Source: Candidatus Zixiibacteriota bacterium (GTDB lineage Bacteria; Zixibacteria; MSB-5A5; UBA10806). Taken from it: DNA of 64,000 bases. Below, piece after piece: positions 2,831 to 44,375 of this stretch; position 1 is the stretch's first letter, and every line of letters starts with the position of its first letter. Location of the stretch: assembly GCA_020348065.1 (NCBI GenBank), contig CP070742.1, positions 1,630,334-1,694,333 of the forward strand, in the 5' to 3' direction. The translations under genes were made by a program, and so were the position numbers. The notes beneath the pieces are model-generated. The model was not told where the DNA came from and made no database searches. It was given only the letters and a program-made list of their open reading frames with translations.

Positions 2831-2859
2831 CCGGGCCCCCTGGGGGCCCGGATTTTTTT
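2831..2859 (+). terminator. Rho-independent terminator after the dockerin protein
   Basis: A perfect ten-base inverted repeat (CCGGGCCCCC / GGGGGCCCGG, single T between the arms) is followed by A and seven T. It closes the upstream secreted-protein gene and insulates the partner-switch operon. Confidence 0.9.
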
Positions 2860-2987: not shown

Positions 2988-3015
2988 TCAATTATTAGAC
3001 AGTACAAGCCGATAA
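2988..3015 (+). promoter_or_regulatory. Sigma-28-like promoter of the partner-switch operon
   Basis: TCAA at 2988-2991 and GCCGATAA at 3008-3015 are separated by 16 bases. The -10 element is an exact match to the FliA consensus (TAAA-N15-GCCGATAA); the -35 has one mismatch and the spacer is one base long. The ATG at 3024 lies only eight bases past the -10, so the transcript would be nearly or fully leaderless. Confidence 0.6.
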
Positions 3016-3023
3016 TCTATAAA

Positions 3024-4349
3024 ATGAGTGAAATAAAGGGTATAAACGACCTTTCGACAGACGAGAATGATCTGGTCCGGAATATATCCGATCTGGAAGA
3101 TAAACTCGCAAAACAGGTTAACCTGTTTACTGACATTTCCAGAATCGGCACCGTGATAACCTCCATTTTCGACCTCGACAGTATCCTGCCGATGGTCATG
3201 GAATCCGCCATAACGATGGTGAAGGCCGAAGTGGGTCAGATGGTGGTATTCGAGGAAAACGGTGGAATCGAGGGTTCGGTATGCTGGGGGATAACCCGGG
3301 AAGTTACCGGCTCCATACGTAATAATAAGGATATCTGTTTGTGGGATTATATTTTTGAAAAAAAGGAATGGCTTAAAATATCGGATCTGGGCGACAATCC
3401 TGAATGGGAGCTTAAACCCGGCTCGGCGCATATCAAATCCCTCATGGCGGCGCCGTTATTTTCCCAGAAGCGGATTGTCGGAGCGATTGTTATAGCGAAT
3501 AAAATTGATGATAATGATTTCAGCGAAGAGGATTATTTCATTCTCGAAATAATAACCCGGTTTGCGGCGGTGGCGGTGGAGAACAGCTATCTTCACGGTG
3601 AGGCGCTGGCCAAGCAAAGGCTCGAGGCCGATATCGATATGGCGCGGCAGCTTCAAAATCTGTTGATGCCGGATAAGCTAATTGAAAACGAAAAGCTGAA
3701 AGTCACGGCCTATAACGCTATGGCCATGCAGGTGGGAGGGGATTTCTACGACATAGTCCAGCTTTCAAGAAATAAATTTATCCTGGTTGTGGCGGATGTT
3801 TCCAGCAAGGGATTCCCGGCGTCGCTTCTGATGACGTCGGCCAGGAGCCTGATAAGAGCTTACGTCATTGAAACCAGCTCTTTGAGCGAGATAGTGGTAA
3901 ATGTCAACGAGCAGCTCTGCGGAGATTCGGCGGCCCTCAAAGGGATGTTTGTGACCTTGATTATGGTGTATCTCGATTTCGATAACGGCGAGATCAAATC
4001 TATCAACGCCGGACATCCTCCCGGCTGGATCAATTATCCCGACGGTCGTATCGCCGAATTAAGAACCGGGGGTCCTTTTGTAGGGCAGTTTAAGGGATTG
4101 AATTACTCGGAGCAGACTTTGCCTTTGGTCCCCGGCTCGAGGATCTTTCTTTATACGGACGGCATATATGAATGCGTAAATTTTGAGGGGAAAATGCTCG
4201 GAATTTCCGGAATCAGAACATTCTTCAAGGAAAACAAAGCTCAACCTCCGGAAAATTTCGAGAAAAGGATGAAACAGCTTCTGGAAACATATTCTGTTGA
4301 TCCCGAAAGAATTGACGATACCACCTATATATTGGCGGATATAAGGTAA
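3024..4349 (+). CDS. GAF-domain PP2C phosphatase, RsbU/SpoIIE type
   Basis: A cytoplasmic serine phosphatase of the partner-switch kind, expected to dephosphorylate the STAS antagonist encoded two genes downstream. A short N-terminal coiled coil leads into a GAF sensor domain (about residues 35-185), then the SpoIIE/PP2C domain (about 215-440). The metal-binding motifs are intact: GGDFYD (Asp240, Asp243), DVSSKG (Asp258), TDGI (Asp379) and DDTT (Asp431, Asp432). There is no membrane segment. No ribosome-binding site precedes the ATG, which fits a leaderless message from the promoter ending at 3015. No other good start exists before the GAF domain. The kinase gene follows after one base. Phosphatase assignment is firm; the GAF ligand is unknown. 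Confidence 0.92.
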   Translation: MSEIKGINDLSTDENDLVRNISDLEDKLAKQVNLFTDISRIGTVITSIFDLDSILPMVMESAITMVKAEVGQMVVFEENGGIEGSVCWGITREVTGSIRNNKDICLWDYIFEKKEWLKISDLGDNPEWELKPGSAHIKSLMAAPLFSQKRIVGAIVIANKIDDNDFSEEDYFILEIITRFAAVAVENSYLHGEALAKQRLEADIDMARQLQNLLMPDKLIENEKLKVTAYNAMAMQVGGDFYDIVQLSRNKFILVVADVSSKGFPASLLMTSARSLIRAYVIETSSLSEIVVNVNEQLCGDSAALKGMFVTLIMVYLDFDNGEIKSINAGHPPGWINYPDGRIAELRTGGPFVGQFKGLNYSEQTLPLVPGSRIFLYTDGIYECVNFEGKMLGISGIRTFFKENKAQPPENFEKRMKQLLETYSVDPERIDDTTYILADIR

Positions 4350-4350
4350 A

Positions 4351-4788
4351 ATGGTAAAATATTCTTTTTCATTTCCGAGCACGGAAGAAGCGTTTATAAT
4401 ATCCGACGATATTTTCGGGCGGGTTATAGACACTTTCGATGTCGGGATCGGCGAAAGACAACGGCTGAAACTTATCGTATCGGAGCTGTATATGAACGCA
4501 TACCTGTATGGCCATAAGGATAATGCCTCGAAGATTATCGATGTTTCCCTGGAAGTCGGGACCGATCGGATTGTAACGATTGTGAAAAACGAGGGAAGGG
4601 GTATGTCTGAAAGACGATTTAAGGAGTTGGTCGAGACGGCCGACGATTTTGAATCCGATTCCGGCAGAGGAATAAGAATTGTACATAAGCTCAGCGATAA
4701 TGTGAAGCTTTTCCGGGACGAGACGGGGAAATTCTGTATTGAATCCACAAAGAAACTGAAAAAAAAACCGATGTTGATAAAAAAATAA
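4351..4788 (+). CDS. Anti-sigma-factor-type serine kinase, RsbW/SpoIIAB-like
   Basis: A 145-residue HATPase_c protein of the RsbW family. Such proteins bind either a sigma factor or a STAS antagonist and phosphorylate the latter. The N-box region reads SELYMNA and the G2-type glycine motif is SGRGIRI, but the G1 box is NEGRG instead of the usual D-x-G-x-G, so the adenine-contacting Asp is Asn. That may weaken ATP binding or be tolerated. The gene starts one base after the phosphatase stop and is followed 17 bases later by the STAS gene, giving a phosphatase-kinase-antagonist set. Its client (a sigma factor or another output protein) is not shown by the sequence. Confidence 0.88.
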   Translation: MVKYSFSFPSTEEAFIISDDIFGRVIDTFDVGIGERQRLKLIVSELYMNAYLYGHKDNASKIIDVSLEVGTDRIVTIVKNEGRGMSERRFKELVETADDFESDSGRGIRIVHKLSDNVKLFRDETGKFCIESTKKLKKKPMLIKK

Positions 4789-4805
4789 ACATAAAGGAGG
4801 AAGGA

Positions 4806-5138
4806 ATGGAAATTACCACCAAGATTAACGGAGATGTCGCCGTAATAAATCTGGAGGGCCGTCTGGATCTCACCAGCGCGAATCAATTGAAGGACGCTTC
4901 ACGGGAGTTTTTCTCAAAAGATAATTGCAAACTGGTTCTGAACATGGACAGGGTCGATTTCATAAACAGCTCCGGTCTTGGCGCCCTGGTTTCGATTCTG
5001 AAAGAAGTCCGCAATCATAAAGGCGAAATGAAGATTTCGAACCTGGCTGAATATGTCAAAGAGATTTTCGATATCACGCAGCTCTCCAGTATATTCGATA
5101 TCTGCGAGGACGAACTGCACGCCCTGAAGAGTTTTTAG
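4806..5138 (+). CDS. STAS-domain anti-sigma factor antagonist, RsbV/SpoIIAA-like
   Basis: A 110-residue single STAS domain, the usual family length. The phosphorylation loop is INSSGLGAL with Ser56 (or Ser55) as the likely phospho-acceptor; the usual preceding Asp is Asn54. A very strong ribosome-binding site (AAAGGAGGAAGGA) ends next to the ATG, so this protein should be made in excess over the kinase, as is normal in partner switching. It should bind the RsbW-like kinase when unphosphorylated and be reset by the GAF-PP2C phosphatase. Confidence 0.92.
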   Translation: MEITTKINGDVAVINLEGRLDLTSANQLKDASREFFSKDNCKLVLNMDRVDFINSSGLGALVSILKEVRNHKGEMKISNLAEYVKEIFDITQLSSIFDICEDELHALKSF

Positions 5139-5188: not shown

Positions 5189-5794
5189 ATGGAGAATGGC
5201 GGTTCCCATATGACTATTATCAGCCCTTTCGCAATTGATACGGCTCGCACGTCATCAATGAGGGTTCTTATAGTAGATGACGATTCATCCCTGTCTGACT
5301 TCCTGAGACAGTTCCTCGAGGAGTTGAAATTTAATGTGGAGATCGCCTCCTCCGGCGAAGAAGCGATTTCCAGATTAAATGACATCGACGGAATAGATAT
5401 CGCCCTGATAGATTTCAGGTTGCCCGGGATGGACGGCCTGGAAACCATCAAGAAAATCTCCGAGTTCTCACCGGATACCGTCACCATGGTTATAACCGGA
5501 TTGCCGACCCTCGATTCCTCCATCCGGGCCATAAGACTGGGGGCGTCGGATTATATATTAAAGCCGTTCAGGCTGGATGATATCGCGGTGGCGATAAAAA
5601 AGGCAATGAAAGAAAGAGAGATAAAATCCGAAATCAAAAATTTGAAGGAGAAAGTGGCGGCGATGGATAAAAATGAGTTACCCTCCGATAACATAGACTT
5701 GAGCGAAAAGGTCGGGGGAACCGGAAAAATAAATGTCTCTCCCGAAATTAACAAAGATCCTGAATCCCCTCCCCCTATCGATTACCCCTGTTAA
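5189..5794 (+). CDS. Response regulator receiver protein with C-terminal tail
   Basis: The receiver domain has the acidic pair in LIVDDD, the phospho-acceptor Asp in IDFRLPGMDG, a conserved Thr in VITG and the Lys in LKPF. About 70 residues of charged, helical and then low-complexity sequence follow, with no DNA-binding or enzymatic domain. The start is uncertain: ATGs lie at 5189, 5210 and 5260, none with a good ribosome-binding site, and the receiver proper begins at the last. It sits directly after the partner-switch genes, so it may feed phosphorelay input to that module or to the kinase downstream. This is inference from position. Confidence 0.85.
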   Translation: MENGGSHMTIISPFAIDTARTSSMRVLIVDDDSSLSDFLRQFLEELKFNVEIASSGEEAISRLNDIDGIDIALIDFRLPGMDGLETIKKISEFSPDTVTMVITGLPTLDSSIRAIRLGASDYILKPFRLDDIAVAIKKAMKEREIKSEIKNLKEKVAAMDKNELPSDNIDLSEKVGGTGKINVSPEINKDPESPPPIDYPC

Positions 5795-5896: not shown

Positions 5897-7141
5897 TTGT
5901 CGACAATGGGGGATAAGGAATACGAACTAAGAAAGCTCGAAGAGCTGGCCGAGTCTTTTACCAATATGGGAGTCCTGACCCGGATGGTGCGCGATTCCTA
6001 TTCGGTGCTCGAATCGAAGATCGATGATGAAAATTCCAGGCTTGCACGTGTAAATGATCTTCTGCGAAAATCGCTCGAGGAAAGAAACAAGCTCGCCGAT
6101 TATCTCAACACTATTCTGGAGAGTGTCGATTCGGGCGTTATTGTAACCGATCACGAAGGCCGTATCAGTATTTTTAATTCTGCCGCCGAGCGTTTTACGG
6201 GAATAAGCGCCGGATCGGCGCTGGGGAGATACTATAAAGACGCGCTTCGCACGGCGGCATCTCCGGAGGCGGATCGGGTGATTACCGGCAAGATGTCCTC
6301 CGCCTCGGGGGAGAAGACCCTGCGGCCCCGTAACGATATTGAGATCCCCGTGGCGTATTCTATTACAAGGCTGCGGTCCTTTGAAAACAATCGGATGGGA
6401 GGCGCGGTCGAGATTTTCTATAATTTAACTGAAATCCGGAAGCTCGAGGCGAATTTACGGAGGATATCCACGCTGGCGGCCCTGGGCGAGATGGCCGCTA
6501 CGGTTGCCCACGAGATACGCAATCCACTGTCGGGAATTGCCGGTTTCGCGGCGCTGCTATCCAGGGACCTTGAAGGTGACCATGAAAACCTGGAAATTGT
6601 CGATAAAATAAAAAAGGGCGTGAACGCTCTAAACGCCATCGTAACAAATCTTCTCGATTTTACCAAGACTGTGGATCCCAACAGGATGGAAATCGATCCA
6701 TCGGTGCTGATCGCAGAAACCATAGAAGATGTTAAGGCCGACCTGGAATCCCGGAATCATACTTTTGATTTCGAAAGAGGATCGCTAAAATTGCGAGCCA
6801 ATCTCGATCCGGATCTTTTCAGACAGATTGTATTTAATCTCGCCAAAAACGCGGTGCAGACAAATCCGGATGGCGGACATGTAAGGCTGAAACTTACCAG
6901 GTCTTCCGCCTCGAACCTCGTTTTAAAAGTCGAGGACGATGGCCCCGGAATTTCGGACGAGATAAGGGACCGGATATTTACGCCTTTTTTTACGACCAAA
7001 ACAAATGGAATAGGACTGGGGCTGGCAACCGTAAAGAAGCTGGTGGAGCTTCACGGCGGTCGGATAGAGGCTGGAAACAGGCCCGGCGGCGGCGCGGTCT
7101 TTACCGTAAATATTCCCAACATTAAAGGAGACCTCTCATGA
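5897..7141 (+). CDS. Cytoplasmic PAS-domain sensor histidine kinase (FlrB/FleS/NtrB-like)
   Basis: A 414-residue kinase with no membrane segments: an N-terminal coiled coil (about residues 10-75), a PAS domain (about 75-180), HisKA with phospho-acceptor His205 in AHEIRNP, and an intact HATPase domain (Asn318 in the N box, DDGPGI from about 347, GIGLGLA near 372). The TTG start is chosen because AGGAGGCGG ends a few bases upstream; the alternative ATG at 5906 is too far from it. The stop overlaps the NtrC-family regulator start (ATGA), so the two form a cognate pair. By family and position it probably controls sigma-54-dependent flagellar genes, like FlrB/FlrC of Vibrio or FleS/FleR of Pseudomonas. 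Confidence 0.93.
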   Translation: MSTMGDKEYELRKLEELAESFTNMGVLTRMVRDSYSVLESKIDDENSRLARVNDLLRKSLEERNKLADYLNTILESVDSGVIVTDHEGRISIFNSAAERFTGISAGSALGRYYKDALRTAASPEADRVITGKMSSASGEKTLRPRNDIEIPVAYSITRLRSFENNRMGGAVEIFYNLTEIRKLEANLRRISTLAALGEMAATVAHEIRNPLSGIAGFAALLSRDLEGDHENLEIVDKIKKGVNALNAIVTNLLDFTKTVDPNRMEIDPSVLIAETIEDVKADLESRNHTFDFERGSLKLRANLDPDLFRQIVFNLAKNAVQTNPDGGHVRLKLTRSSASNLVLKVEDDGPGISDEIRDRIFTPFFTTKTNGIGLGLATVKKLVELHGGRIEAGNRPGGGAVFTVNIPNIKGDLS

Positions 7142-8496
7142 AACCCAGGATATTAATAGTGGATGACGAAGAATTGGTGAGGGATTTCATATCGGAGGTA
7201 TTGTTAAGGATGGGGTACGCTCCCCTGGCCGCCCCGACGGGAGAGAAGGCGATAGAATATCTTGAAAAAAGTGAATACGACCTGGTCATAACCGATTATA
7301 AAATGCCCGGGCTCTCCGGTGATGACGTTTTGAAAAAAGCGATAGAGTTGTGGCCGGACTGCAGGGTTATAATGTTGACCGCTTTCGGGACTATCGATCA
7401 TGCGGTGGAGGCCATGAAAATCGGGGCCCAGGATTATATAACCAAACCGATCAGCCCCGATCATCTCGAGGTGGTGGTAAACAAGGCCCTGGAGTATAAA
7501 TCCCTGAAAATAGAAAACAGAAATCTGAAAAACGAAATCGGCGACAAATATTCCTTTGAGAATATCGTGGGCAAATCGGCGGCGATAAGGGAAGTATTCG
7601 AGCTTATAAGACGGGCCAGTCCTTCGGATTCAACCATTCTGATAAACGGAGAATCGGGGACGGGCAAGGAACTTGTGGCCAAGGCGATTCATTACAATTC
7701 CGCGAGAGCCGATGCCCCGTTTATAAAAATGAACTGCGCGGCATTGCCGGAGGGTTTGATAGAGTCGGAACTGTTCGGTCATGAGAAGGGTGCCTTCACC
7801 GGCGCTATCAGGTCGACCAGGGGACGGTTTGAAATGGCGGACGGCGGCACGCTTTTGCTCGATGAGATATCGGAGATTCCACCGCCCTTGCAGGCCAAGC
7901 TTTTAAGGGTTTTGCAGGAAAAGGAATTCGAGCGTATCGGGTCGGGGCAAACCATACGGGTGGACGTTCGCGTGATCGCCACCTCCAACCGCGATCTCAA
8001 AGACGAGGTGGCCGCAGGCGATTTCAGGGACGATCTTTTTTACAGGCTTAACGTAATTCCTATCGATCTGCCCCCACTCAGGCAGCGTTTGGAGGATATA
8101 CCGCTTCTGGCAGATTATTTCCTTAATATATATTGTCAGAAGATGGGGATTCCAACGAAAACCCTGAATGAGAAAGCCGGGCAAATGCTGTTGTCATACT
8201 TATGGCCCGGAAATGTGCGGGAACTGGAAAACATGATTGAAAGGGCTGTCGTAATTTCGAAGAACCAGGAGTTGAAGGTGAGCGATTTCCCGCCGGAGAT
8301 CGCCGCCGGCATACCAATGTTGGGCAAGACATCGATGGATGTGGGCATGAGCATAGGGGAGGCCGAAAAAATCCTGATCCTCAAAACTCTCAAGGCGCAC
8401 GGGGGAAATAAATCCAGGGCCGCGGATGTCCTTGGGATTTCAAGCCGGACACTTCGAAATAAACTCCACGAATACGGTTTGTCCGGTAACGATTAG
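7138..8496 (+). CDS. Sigma-54-dependent response regulator, NtrC family (FlrC/FleR-like)
   Basis: A 452-residue activator with the full three-domain layout: receiver (phospho-acceptor Asp53 in TDYKMPG), AAA+ domain (Walker A GESGTGKE near residue 171, sigma-54 contact loop GAFTGA near 217, Walker B LLLDE), and a C-terminal Fis-type helix-turn-helix (SRAADVLGIS..TLRNKL). The GAFTGA loop is required to remodel sigma-54 RNA polymerase. It overlaps the upstream kinase gene by four bases. Sigma-54-type promoters are present before flgB (10199) and flgF (44361), the likely targets. Family assignment is firm; target assignment is inferred. Confidence 0.95.
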   Translation: MKPRILIVDDEELVRDFISEVLLRMGYAPLAAPTGEKAIEYLEKSEYDLVITDYKMPGLSGDDVLKKAIELWPDCRVIMLTAFGTIDHAVEAMKIGAQDYITKPISPDHLEVVVNKALEYKSLKIENRNLKNEIGDKYSFENIVGKSAAIREVFELIRRASPSDSTILINGESGTGKELVAKAIHYNSARADAPFIKMNCAALPEGLIESELFGHEKGAFTGAIRSTRGRFEMADGGTLLLDEISEIPPPLQAKLLRVLQEKEFERIGSGQTIRVDVRVIATSNRDLKDEVAAGDFRDDLFYRLNVIPIDLPPLRQRLEDIPLLADYFLNIYCQKMGIPTKTLNEKAGQMLLSYLWPGNVRELENMIERAVVISKNQELKVSDFPPEIAAGIPMLGKTSMDVGMSIGEAEKILILKTLKAHGGNKSRAADVLGISSRTLRNKLHEYGLSGND

Positions 8497-8533: not shown

Positions 8534-8560
8534 TAAATAGATAATATACGTTGCCGATAT
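8534..8560 (+). promoter_or_regulatory. Sigma-28 (FliA) promoter of motAB
   Basis: TAAA at 8534-8537, a 15-base spacer and GCCGATAT at 8553-8560 match the FliA consensus at 11 of 12 positions with ideal spacing. The predicted start lies just upstream of the motA ribosome-binding site. Confidence 0.85.
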
Positions 8561-8582: not shown

Positions 8583-9344
8583 ATGGATATTGCGTCTGTA
8601 GCCGGGTTAATAATCGGTATTAGTGCCGTTATGCTCGCTTTTTTTCTGGAAGGCGGCAACTTTACGTCGGTGCTGCAATTGCCGGCGATGATTCTGGTAA
8701 TTTTCGGCACTATCGGCGCCGCAACCGTTACCACCTCATTGAAAACCCTGGTAAATCTCCCCAACCTGTTGAAGGTAGTGTTCTTGGGAAAACCGCAGGA
8801 ACCTCACAAGGTGGTCAGCACCATCGGGACTCTGGCGGAGACCGCGCGCCGTGAGGGACTGCTGGGATTAGAAGACGATTATCAAAAAATGACAGAACCG
8901 TTCCTAAAAAAATCGTTACAGCTTGTAATCGACGGCACCAATATTATGACACTGCGCACAATCCTGGAAACCGAAATGGTTAATATCGGCGAAAGACATA
9001 AAACCGGGCAGACATTTTTCCAGAAGCTGGGCGGTTTTTCTCCGACCCTCGGCATAATCGGGACCGTACTGGGATTGATCAATGCCCTGAGCACTTCCGG
9101 GGATCCCCAAACCATGGCGACACATATTGCCAGTGCCTTTATAGCGACGCTGTGGGGCATCTCGCTGGCGAACCTGATCTACCTGCCCATAAGCGACAAG
9201 CTCAAATATCGCAATCGCGAGGAGATGCGGTGTCTGGAGCTGATTATAGAAGGAATGATTTCGATACAGACCGGTGAAAATCCACGGGTGATTAGAAACA
9301 AACTCCTGTCTTTTATAACGCCCGAAGAACGACTGGTTAAATGA
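8583..9344 (+). CDS. motA: Flagellar motor stator protein MotA (PomA type)
   Basis: Ion-channel subunit of the stator that drives flagellar rotation. The 253-residue length and four hydrophobic segments (two near the N-terminus, two around residues 150-200) fit the PomA branch. The conserved SPTLGIIGTVLGL segment supplies the channel Pro. The large cytoplasmic loop has the charged stretch TARREGLLGLE, which interacts with FliG in the family. It overlaps motB by four bases and follows a sigma-28 promoter, so it is a late gene, made when the motor is ready. Confidence 0.96.
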   Translation: MDIASVAGLIIGISAVMLAFFLEGGNFTSVLQLPAMILVIFGTIGAATVTTSLKTLVNLPNLLKVVFLGKPQEPHKVVSTIGTLAETARREGLLGLEDDYQKMTEPFLKKSLQLVIDGTNIMTLRTILETEMVNIGERHKTGQTFFQKLGGFSPTLGIIGTVLGLINALSTSGDPQTMATHIASAFIATLWGISLANLIYLPISDKLKYRNREEMRCLELIIEGMISIQTGENPRVIRNKLLSFITPEERLVK

Positions 9345-10150
9345 TTTTCAGAAAACCGAAAGACGATGATGACAGGGAGAACCTGGAAAGATGGCTTTTA
9401 ACATACGCCGATCTAATCACCCTCCTGTTAGCGTTTTTTATAGTATTATATTCCATGTCCAGGCTTGACGCTGAGAAATTCGAACACATTTCCAAAGCGC
9501 TGAGGACAGTCCTTCGAGGCGCCGCAGCATCGCCTTTGCCGCATCAGATATTGATGATGAACGATCCGGGAGATGGGCCGATAAAAACGGGAGATTTGAA
9601 TTATTTAAAGTCTAATATTGATAAATTACTTCTTCAGGAAGGCCTGGATAACAAAATATCGGCCACCATCGAGGATCGCGGCCTTGTAATTAGAATATCG
9701 GAATCGGCGTTTTTCGACCTGGGCTCTGCGGAATTGAAAGAACAGGCAAAAGGTATACTGGATCTTTTCGGCGGTATCCTGAGCGAAATACCGAATCATG
9801 TCAGGGTTGAAGGCCATACCGATAATTTACCGATAAAAAACGAGATATATCCGTCCAACTGGGAGTTGTCGACATACCGGGCGACTGTTTGTATCAGGTA
9901 TCTTATCGAAAATTACGGCATGAAACCGGACAGAATTTCCGCTATGGGTTACAGCGAATATCGTCCCATCGCGGCCAACGACACGCCGGAGGGGAGGAAT
10001 AAAAACAGGCGGGTGGATATTGTGGTCTTGAACTGGGATGAAAAGCATAAAGAACCGACCCCAAAGCACGAAGATATTTCACAAAGCGCGGAAAAAAATT
10101 CCAACTCTGATTTTGAGAGTATCGATGCGCTCGTAGACGAGCCATTATAA
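9341..10150 (+). CDS. motB: Flagellar motor stator protein MotB
   Basis: Partner of MotA that anchors the stator to peptidoglycan. A single membrane helix follows the N-terminus and carries the ion-binding Asp24 in TYADLITLLLAFF. The periplasmic C-terminal half is an OmpA-like peptidoglycan-binding domain with VEGHTDN, STYRA and NRRVDIV motifs. An extra low-complexity tail of about 40 residues, rich in Glu, Ser and Asp, follows the OmpA domain. Whether the coupling ion is H+ or Na+ cannot be read with certainty. Confidence 0.96.
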   Translation: MIFRKPKDDDDRENLERWLLTYADLITLLLAFFIVLYSMSRLDAEKFEHISKALRTVLRGAAASPLPHQILMMNDPGDGPIKTGDLNYLKSNIDKLLLQEGLDNKISATIEDRGLVIRISESAFFDLGSAELKEQAKGILDLFGGILSEIPNHVRVEGHTDNLPIKNEIYPSNWELSTYRATVCIRYLIENYGMKPDRISAMGYSEYRPIAANDTPEGRNKNRRVDIVVLNWDEKHKEPTPKHEDISQSAEKNSNSDFESIDALVDEPL

Positions 10151-10198: not shown

Positions 10199-10213
10199 TG
10201 GCATACCCTTTGC
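10199..10213 (+). promoter_or_regulatory. Sigma-54 promoter of the flgB operon
   Basis: TGGCATACCCTTTGC followed by T matches the -24/-12 consensus TGGCAC-N5-TTGCW, with the invariant GG (10200-10201) and GC (10212-10213) ten bases apart. It lies 28 bases before the flgB start and downstream of an NtrC-family activator gene. Confidence 0.85.
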
Positions 10214-35745: not shown

Positions 35746-36504
35746 ATGGTAGCTTTAGAAGTATGGGAGCAATATAAAGAAACAAAGGATACCGAAACAA
35801 GAGACAGACTTTTAAGCAACTATTTGCCTCTGGTAAAAAACGTCGCCGGCCGCATGGCGGCGGGATTCCCCAAATCAGTTGAGCTGAACGACCTCATAAA
35901 TACCGGAGTTATCGGACTCATAGAAGCGTTCAACAATTTCGATCCGGGGCGCGGGGTAAAGTTTGAAACCTTCGCCGTTCCCCGCATAAGAGGCGCCATC
36001 CTCGATGAGCTTCGCGCCCTCGACTGGGTGCCCAGGTCCACAAGAGCAAAAGCACGCAGTATCGACAGGGCGATTACGAAGCTGGAAAATCGACTCGGCA
36101 GGGGTCCTTCGGATAAAGAGCTGGCCGAGACGCTTGATATCTCGGTGTCGGATCTGTTTTCCGCCAAGAAGGATCTTTGTTTCTCATCACTGCTCTCTCT
36201 TGACGAGATGATCTGTCGCGAGGATGATAATCGTCAGGTTCCCAGAATAGAAACCGTGGAAAACCGGAAAAACATGGATATTCTGGAAGATATGGAATTA
36301 TCGGAATTGAAGTCCTACATGATGATTTCCATCAGCACCCTCACCGAACAGGAACGGCTGGTTGTCTCTCTCTATTACTACGAGGAGCTCACTCTCAAGG
36401 AAATCGGCGAAATAATGCTGATATCGGAGTCGCGGGTGTCGCAGATTCACACTCGAGCGGTAAGCCGTCTCCGGGGTCTGATTCGAGATAAATTTGCCAT
36501 TTGA
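35746..36504 (+). CDS. fliA: Flagellar RNA polymerase sigma factor FliA (sigma-28)
   Basis: A 252-residue sigma-70-family factor of the FliA/WhiG group. Region 2 (LPLVKNVAGRMAAGFPKSVE; NNFDPGRGVKFETFAVPRIR), region 3 (GRGPSDKELAETLDIS) and region 4 (YYEELTLKEIGEIMLISESRVSQ in overlapping parts) are all present. It should read the TAAA-N15-GCCGATAA promoters found before motA and the other late genes. No flgM gene for its usual anti-sigma factor is visible in the window. Confidence 0.97.
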   Translation: MVALEVWEQYKETKDTETRDRLLSNYLPLVKNVAGRMAAGFPKSVELNDLINTGVIGLIEAFNNFDPGRGVKFETFAVPRIRGAILDELRALDWVPRSTRAKARSIDRAITKLENRLGRGPSDKELAETLDISVSDLFSAKKDLCFSSLLSLDEMICREDDNRQVPRIETVENRKNMDILEDMELSELKSYMMISISTLTEQERLVVSLYYYEELTLKEIGEIMLISESRVSQIHTRAVSRLRGLIRDKFAI

Positions 36505-36525: not shown

Positions 36526-36840
36526 ATGGAAAGGGTGGAAATTAATAACGATCTCACCCGCAACGAACCGATCAGAGAAGTCCGGCAGACCAAGGAGGCC
36601 CGCACCGGGGAGACGACAAAGAAAAAGTTCGTCGCGGAGCTCGAAAGAAGACTTTCCCGCAAGAAAAAAAAGAACGGCCAAAAAGAGAAAGATGAAATAA
36701 TCCTTCACGAGGACGAGAAATCCGATGAAGAGAGAAAGACTGATGACGGCAAAAAAGGAAAAAACAAAAATAAAAAAATAAAAAATCCGGTTTCGTCGCC
36801 GGACGGTTTGAAAGGGAAAGAGGTCGATTTTCTGGCGTGA
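36526..36840 (+). CDS. Highly charged small protein of unknown function
   Basis: A 104-residue protein made mostly of Lys, Glu, Asp and Arg, with a very basic patch (RKKKKNGQKEKDE) and no hydrophobic core, so it is probably disordered. I do not recognise a family. GGAGCGG lies upstream of the ATG. It sits between fliA and a SwrB-like gene, 12 bases before the latter, and is co-directional with them. It does not resemble FlgM. Confidence 0.6.
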   Translation: MERVEINNDLTRNEPIREVRQTKEARTGETTKKKFVAELERRLSRKKKKNGQKEKDEIILHEDEKSDEERKTDDGKKGKNKNKKIKNPVSSPDGLKGKEVDFLA

Positions 36841-44360: not shown

Positions 44361-44375
44361 AGGCATATCAATTGC
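44361..44375 (+). promoter_or_regulatory. Sigma-54 promoter of the flgF operon
   Basis: AGGCATATCAATTGC followed by T carries GG (44362-44363) and GC (44374-44375) ten bases apart and the TTGCT -12 element. It mirrors the flgB promoter (TGGCATACCCTTTGCT). It lies 40 bases before the flgF start. Confidence 0.8.

Follow-up and report, generated by a model that had tools for sequence, protein, structure and literature searches.

A partner switch behind a conserved FliA-type promoter heads the flagellar locus of a Zixibacteria genome that also encodes FlgM

The flagellar locus of a Zixibacteria genome begins with a partner switch, a kind of regulator familiar chiefly from the control of stress responses and sporulation. 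The locus is nearly complete within the window, the 64,000-nucleotide stretch of DNA that was analyzed (G000:C1:1630334–1694333) from a single-contig genome of 3.74 Mb. Its relatives in the named collections belong to Candidatus Zixiibacteriota, the closest being bin119 (CP070813), whose STAS protein is 95% identical. The initial annotation placed a phosphatase–kinase–STAS trio at the head of the locus, saw no flgM beside flgN/flgK or fliA, and proposed that the RsbW-like kinase could gate FliA or another flagellar output, in feedback. The trio proves to be real and conserved; the idea of a FliA gate replacing FlgM is not supported.

Pfam confirms the domains of the trio, which occupies positions 3024–5138 of the forward strand behind the octamer GCCGATAA at 3008–3015. 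The first gene, rsbU (3024–4349), encodes a 441-residue protein with an N-terminal coiled region, a GAF domain, and a SpoIIE/PP2C phosphatase domain, assigned from Pfam and catalytic motifs. The second, rsbW (4351–4788), encodes a 145-residue GHKL protein kinase resembling RsbW and SpoIIAB, assigned from Pfam, key residues, and structure matches, and the third (4806–5138) encodes a 110-residue STAS protein of the anti-anti-sigma type, assigned from Pfam and key residues. Upstream, a terminator-like hairpin, ccgggccccctgggggcccgga, followed by a T-run (2831–2859, forward strand) divides the trio from an 874-residue gene. Downstream, the putative operon continues on the same strand with a receiver protein (response regulator) bearing a C-terminal extension (5189–5794; Pfam and synteny), followed by a PAS-histidine kinase in an FlrB/FleS-like position (5897–7141) and an NtrC-type sigma-54 activator in an FlrC/FleR-like position (7138–8496), both recognized by Pfam and as conserved neighbors of the trio. 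These are followed by motA (8583–9344) and motB (9341–10150), and then by flgB, flgC, and more flagellar genes.

The residues expected of an Rsb/SpoIIA-type kinase, phosphatase, and phosphorylation site are mostly retained. RsbU matches the Pfam models GAF_2 (3.2e-12) and SpoIIE (2.9e-34) and retains the metal-binding Asp motifs of a PP2C phosphatase (GGDFYD, ADVSSKG, and DDTT), which read GGDFYD, DVS(S/N)KG, and DD(T/F)T in the aligned RsbU set. RsbW matches HATPase_c_2 (3.7e-13), and its profile matches include 1til (1.2e-17), 1l0o, and 6m36. A predicted model of RsbW (pLDDT 85, pTM 0.81) likewise matches structures of RsbW and SpoIIAB (6m37, 1til, 1l0o), with a TM score of 0.80 to both 1l0o and 1til. 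The N-box residues Glu45 and Asn49 that characterize kinases of this type, together with the GRG box, are present in all 57 aligned sequences. The G1-box Asp, which is found in 53 of the 57 and so characterizes the family as a whole, is replaced in the present RsbW by Asn80, as a result of which its ATP binding may be weakened. The STAS protein (Pfam, 4.1e-21; profile matches to SpoIIAA and TM1442) carries its predicted phosphorylation site, Ser55, within FINSSGLG, and the NSSG form of the (D/N)S(S/T)G motif with its phosphorylatable Ser is found in 57 of 57 sequences. Since none of the 57 sequences departs from the kinase Glu45, Asn49, and GRG box or from the STAS NSSG motif, the family is expected to have a working phospho-switch. 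The assignment as a partner switch is therefore upheld by both domains and residues, and the trio represents a genuine module of the Rsb/SpoIIA type, which is probably active.

The second element of the initial annotation was the promoter. The exact −10 octamer that it reported ahead of rsbU is indeed present at 3008–3015, preceded by TCAA (2988–2991) at a distance of 16 nucleotides, whereas TAAA-N15 would be expected. As proof of a FliA (sigma-28)-type promoter the octamer was rejected, because it occurs in 11 exact copies in the 64-kb window and, with at most one mismatch, 152 times against 79.5 expected from shuffles, an approximately twofold excess. Genome-wide, the fuller pattern TAAA-N14–16-GCCGATA is found 24 times, close to the 21 occurrences of the reversed pattern used as a control. 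The only occurrence of this pattern in the window is a second FliA-type promoter, TAAA-N15-GCCGATAT (8534–8560, forward strand), which lies 22 nucleotides before motA and is conserved in related loci.

Phylogenetic footprinting was used in place of the single octamer. Most of the 21 related trio loci examined have, as their best motif 5′ of rsbU, a similarly placed site of the FliA type, which in G026 and G076, for example, reads TAAA-N15-GCCGATAC. In 62 related loci from the named collection, scored by the number of matches out of 11 to TAAA-N15/16-GCCGATA, a FliA-like motif just 5′ of rsbU reaches at least 9/11 in 71% and at least 10/11 in 34%. At 411 other gene starts of the same loci the corresponding values are 10.5% and 1.0%, and in shuffles they are 5.5% and 0.3%; the motA starts reach them in 100% and 25%. 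As the related loci are not independent, these percentages describe conservation and do not constitute a formal test. An order-level relative (G007) has two receiver genes inserted ahead of rsbU and carries a matching FliA-type site before the first of them. A promoter of the TAAA-N15/16-GCCGATA type is conserved 5′ of the rsbU orthologues, with TCAA-N16 in the present copy, and this comparison across related loci makes the rsbU promoter convincing as FliA-type. Within the genome itself, FliA-like sites also precede motA, fliC, fliD, and flgM.

The rsbU start codon lies 8 nucleotides past the −10 element and lacks a Shine–Dalgarno sequence. In 31 of 45 rsbU loci, at most 12 nucleotides separate the end of the octamer from the earliest start codon in frame; the median distance is 9, compared with 40 for motA. 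This spacing indicates that the rsbU transcript is probably leaderless. In many Zixibacteria (related loci L135–L214), the distance from the sigma-28 −10 element to the rsbU start is nearly fixed at 7–11 nucleotides, which suggests that leaderless transcription is itself conserved.

The proposal that RsbW replaces FlgM depended on flgM being missing. No flgM is visible inside the window, as the annotation stated, but this does not hold for the genome: a search by synteny and with a profile built from relatives locates the gene at C1:1697736–1698200, 3.4 kb past the right edge of the window. The Pfam FlgM model finds nothing credible in this genome (best E value 0.85, at an unrelated place). 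In relatives such as G007 and G060, whose FlgM does exceed the Pfam cut-off, flgM follows fliD and fliS and precedes an HDOD-domain gene, and the same order is seen here beyond the window, where fliC, fliD, fliS, and a weakly FlgN-like gene are followed by a 154-residue ORF and then by the HDOD gene. This ORF aligns over the C-terminal motif of FlgM, with Arg114, Gly128, and Tyr130 invariant, and is the only match among 690 ORFs (E value 2e-9) to a profile of nine relatives from which its own sequence was left out. It is preceded by a FliA-like site, TAAA-N15-GGCGATAC, 21 nucleotides ahead.

With the full profile, 83 of the 98 genomes of the class show a relative of this FlgM, among them the trio-bearing genomes G001, G002, G003, G011, G026, G033, and G088; in trio-bearing G020, the full profile finds none. 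The presence of a syntenic flgM here and in most trio-bearing relatives removes the premise on which RsbW was taken as its substitute, and the genome is not an example of a FliA system lacking FlgM. A flgM gene elsewhere in the genome was one of the two findings that the annotation itself had named as refuting its idea. A false "missing anti-sigma factor" can thus arise when a divergent flgM lies outside the window and below profile cut-offs. Immediately behind fliA (35746–36504, forward strand; a FliA/WhiG-family sigma factor by the sigma survey and TIGR02479, 266.8 bits), there is a short, very Lys/Glu-rich ORF of 104 residues (36526–36840), which was considered as FlgM and rejected, as it is Lys-rich and is missed by the flgM profile.

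FliA could still be the direct target of the kinase, with RsbW acting as a second anti-sigma factor that sequesters FliA until dephosphorylated STAS protein binds RsbW, in negative feedback parallel to FlgM. A survey of the genome returned 19 sigma-type matches, comprising FliA, two RpoD-like factors, and a remainder that is ECF-like by length. Group 3, related to SigB and SigF, is represented by FliA alone, and no factor of the SigB/SigF type was found in the genome, so that FliA would be the obvious sigma target if RsbW were an anti-sigma factor. FliA also appears to drive the trio, and the structures closest to RsbW include the complex of SpoIIAB with sigma-F. The contact residues argue otherwise. 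In SpoIIAB, Arg20 and Lys41 are described as mediating the interaction with sigma (PMC10345196), and Glu21 of SpoIIAA and RsbV is the clash point that makes the binding of sigma and anti-anti-sigma factor mutually exclusive (PMC7340262). By a gapless profile alignment, on which these column comparisons depend, Arg is not one of the main residues in the RsbW column for Arg20, Met and Leu predominate in the column for Lys41, and the position of Glu21 is Arg19 in the present STAS protein and Arg in 56 of 57. These differences count against the usual anti-sigma geometry without precluding binding as such, and with FlgM also present, direct gating of FliA by RsbW is not favored and, in our judgment, quite unlikely.

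FliA itself is widespread: a FliA-type match was obtained in 98 of 98 class genomes, two of which are incomplete and matched only through an RpoD-like paralogue, and in 21 of 21 other genomes searched. Within this set, no trio-bearing genome without FliA, a case that would have eliminated FliA as the target, was found. Some loci labeled Calditrichota or Ignavibacterium have FliA matches at coordinates identical to those of class members, and these loci probably belong to Zixibacteria despite their labels.

With FlgM, FliA, and the trio co-occurring, an output through FlgM can be envisaged in which unphosphorylated STAS protein binds FlgM and frees FliA, in positive feedback on the late genes. 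There is an experimental precedent in the HsbR–HsbA–FlgM system of Pseudomonas aeruginosa, in which unphosphorylated HsbA binds FlgM (PMC6482189). FlgM, however, is very divergent here (16–29% identity) and for that reason an ill-suited partner of a STAS protein with 43–65% conservation, although divergence is less marked in the C-terminal region of FlgM. Moreover, HsbR unites kinase and phosphatase, which here are separate proteins. This specific output is unlikely on present evidence.

The neighborhood of the trio offers a further indication of its role. In nearly all of 80 loci, genes for a CheY-like protein, a PAS-histidine kinase, and an NtrC-type activator come after the trio. Genes for HEAT-repeat protein, CheR, CheZ, CheA, and CheB are frequently interposed, and motAB and flgB onward then follow; the trio is the head of the motility locus across Zixibacteria. 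In many relatives, for example in loci L093, L088, and L086 (G083, G076, and G007), the gene for the HEAT-repeat protein, of ~610–635 residues, separates the STAS gene from the che genes. The HEAT-repeat and che neighbors in relatives suggested a role for the trio in chemotaxis, but chemotaxis is not required as an output: by the PF02895 model, CheA is absent from both the present genome and a congener, each a single contig (G000 and G001), and yet the trio persists together with its promoter. Both genomes have a flagellar locus and would appear to be flagellated without a chemotaxis kinase.

Proximity to motAB and to flagellar structural genes, and the late-gene expression implied by the FliA-type promoter, would also suit a post-translational action on the motor or another nontranscriptional target, the link to the locus then being one of co-regulation only. 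In the Bordetella Btr and Vibrio Syp systems, STAS-only proteins act on targets other than sigma factors. Where che genes are absent from the locus, however, the trio usually still stands beside the receiver protein, PAS-histidine kinase, and NtrC-type activator, which points to gene regulation, and we assign the motor reading a low probability. A sigma-54-type site, TGGCATACCCTTTGC, lies 5′ of flgB (10199–10213) and is an exact TGGC-N7-TTGC, which would fit control by the NtrC-type protein at 7138–8496, as would a −24/−12 site 5′ of flgF (44361–44375) with one mismatch, in a search whose sigma-54-type matches overall are not above chance.

The module might instead control an RpoD-like sigma factor or the general stress response and merely be carried in a motility operon. 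The genome does have two RpoD-like sigma factors, and HsbR binds RpoS in P. aeruginosa (PMC6482189), but the motility linkage and FliA promoter are conserved across the phylum, and such a role could fall to another partner switch, found class-wide and located here at G000:C1:2866 kb; we regard this explanation as very improbable. That second switch (G000:C1:2866146–2869268; L127:9147–12269) consists of a STAS gene, rsbW, and a 739-residue RsbU, in an order kept in many class members. A further RsbW-type HATPase domain lies inside a 969-residue RsbU-like protein (G000:C1:27633–28010; L128:5138–8047) adjoining a ParA-like gene and a second STAS-containing gene. An argument that the STAS protein must be the output of the trio, since it is conserved far above RsbW, was rejected because the second, unrelated switch has the same asymmetry, with identities outside the genus of ~65–83% for STAS and 42–52% for RsbW.

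Taken together, we consider it somewhat more probable than not that the trio is a partner switch transcribed late by FliA, with feedback on the flagellar program beside FlgM. The scheme builds on features that are directly observed, namely the genes, their catalytic residues, the conserved promoter and synteny, and the presence of FlgM and FliA, from which we infer the enzymatic activity and the direction of the switch. Once the hook–basal body is complete and FlgM is exported, free FliA would transcribe rsbU, rsbW, and the STAS gene and, downstream, the genes for the receiver protein, PAS kinase, and NtrC-type activator, as well as motAB. The GAF domain of RsbU would sense an intracellular signal and determine how fast the PP2C domain dephosphorylates the STAS protein at Ser55, a site that RsbW would rephosphorylate. 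The resulting balance of phosphorylated and free STAS protein, and hence the amount of free RsbW, would feed back on the flagellar regulators as a late checkpoint alongside FlgM and not in its place.

We infer that the target is a flagellar regulator, either FlgM–FliA or the PAS kinase/NtrC sigma-54 pair, and not FliA bound by RsbW. Feedback through STAS or RsbW on one of these pairs is favored over sequestration of FliA because the trio usually lies beside the receiver, PAS kinase, and NtrC genes and because a sigma-54-type site precedes flgB, although the trio may instead regulate the motor or something outside motility. A bolder form, in which a leaderless, FliA-made partner switch feeds back on FliA across the phylum (through RsbW directly, or through STAS on FlgM), is doubtful but conceivable; if true, the FlgM checkpoint, which is coupled to secretion, would gain a second layer gated by a signal. 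Our literature search found no paper on a Zixibacteria motility regulator. The locus presents a partner switch inside the motility locus of an uncultivated phylum, apparently made by FliA and beside a normal FlgM, and offers a concrete case of two stacked controls in a flagellar cascade.

The trio is reminiscent of the RsbU–RsbW–RsbV and SpoIIE–SpoIIAB–SpoIIAA modules of Bacillus subtilis, with which it shares a PP2C phosphatase, a GHKL kinase, a STAS protein with a phosphorylatable Ser, and the RsbW fold. It differs from them in having no adjacent cognate sigma gene, in its FliA-type promoter and placement in a motility locus, in the GAF input of RsbU, and in lacking the equivalents of Arg20 and Lys41 and the STAS Glu21. 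In Chlamydia trachomatis, the RsbU–RsbW–RsbV1/V2 switch likewise occurs in a bacterium that has sigma-28 and sigma-54, and RsbW there complexes with sigma-66 (PMC11619594); that switch lies outside any motility locus, whereas the Zixibacteria trio lies inside one. In the classical FlgM–FliA checkpoint, as here, both proteins are encoded (FlgM in divergent form) and FliA-like sites stand upstream of motA, fliC, fliD, and flgM; the Zixibacteria FliA regulon gains a kinase/phosphatase switch, and in this genome the FlgM, of ~154 residues, scores under the Pfam cut-off. Among flagellar systems, the nearest precedent is HsbR–HsbA–FlgM of P. aeruginosa, which is also a flagella-tied partner switch in a cell with FlgM and FliA. 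HsbR, however, combines receiver, PP2C, and kinase in a single protein, whereas in Zixibacteria RsbU and RsbW are separate and the phosphatase carries a GAF domain, not a REC domain, as its input.
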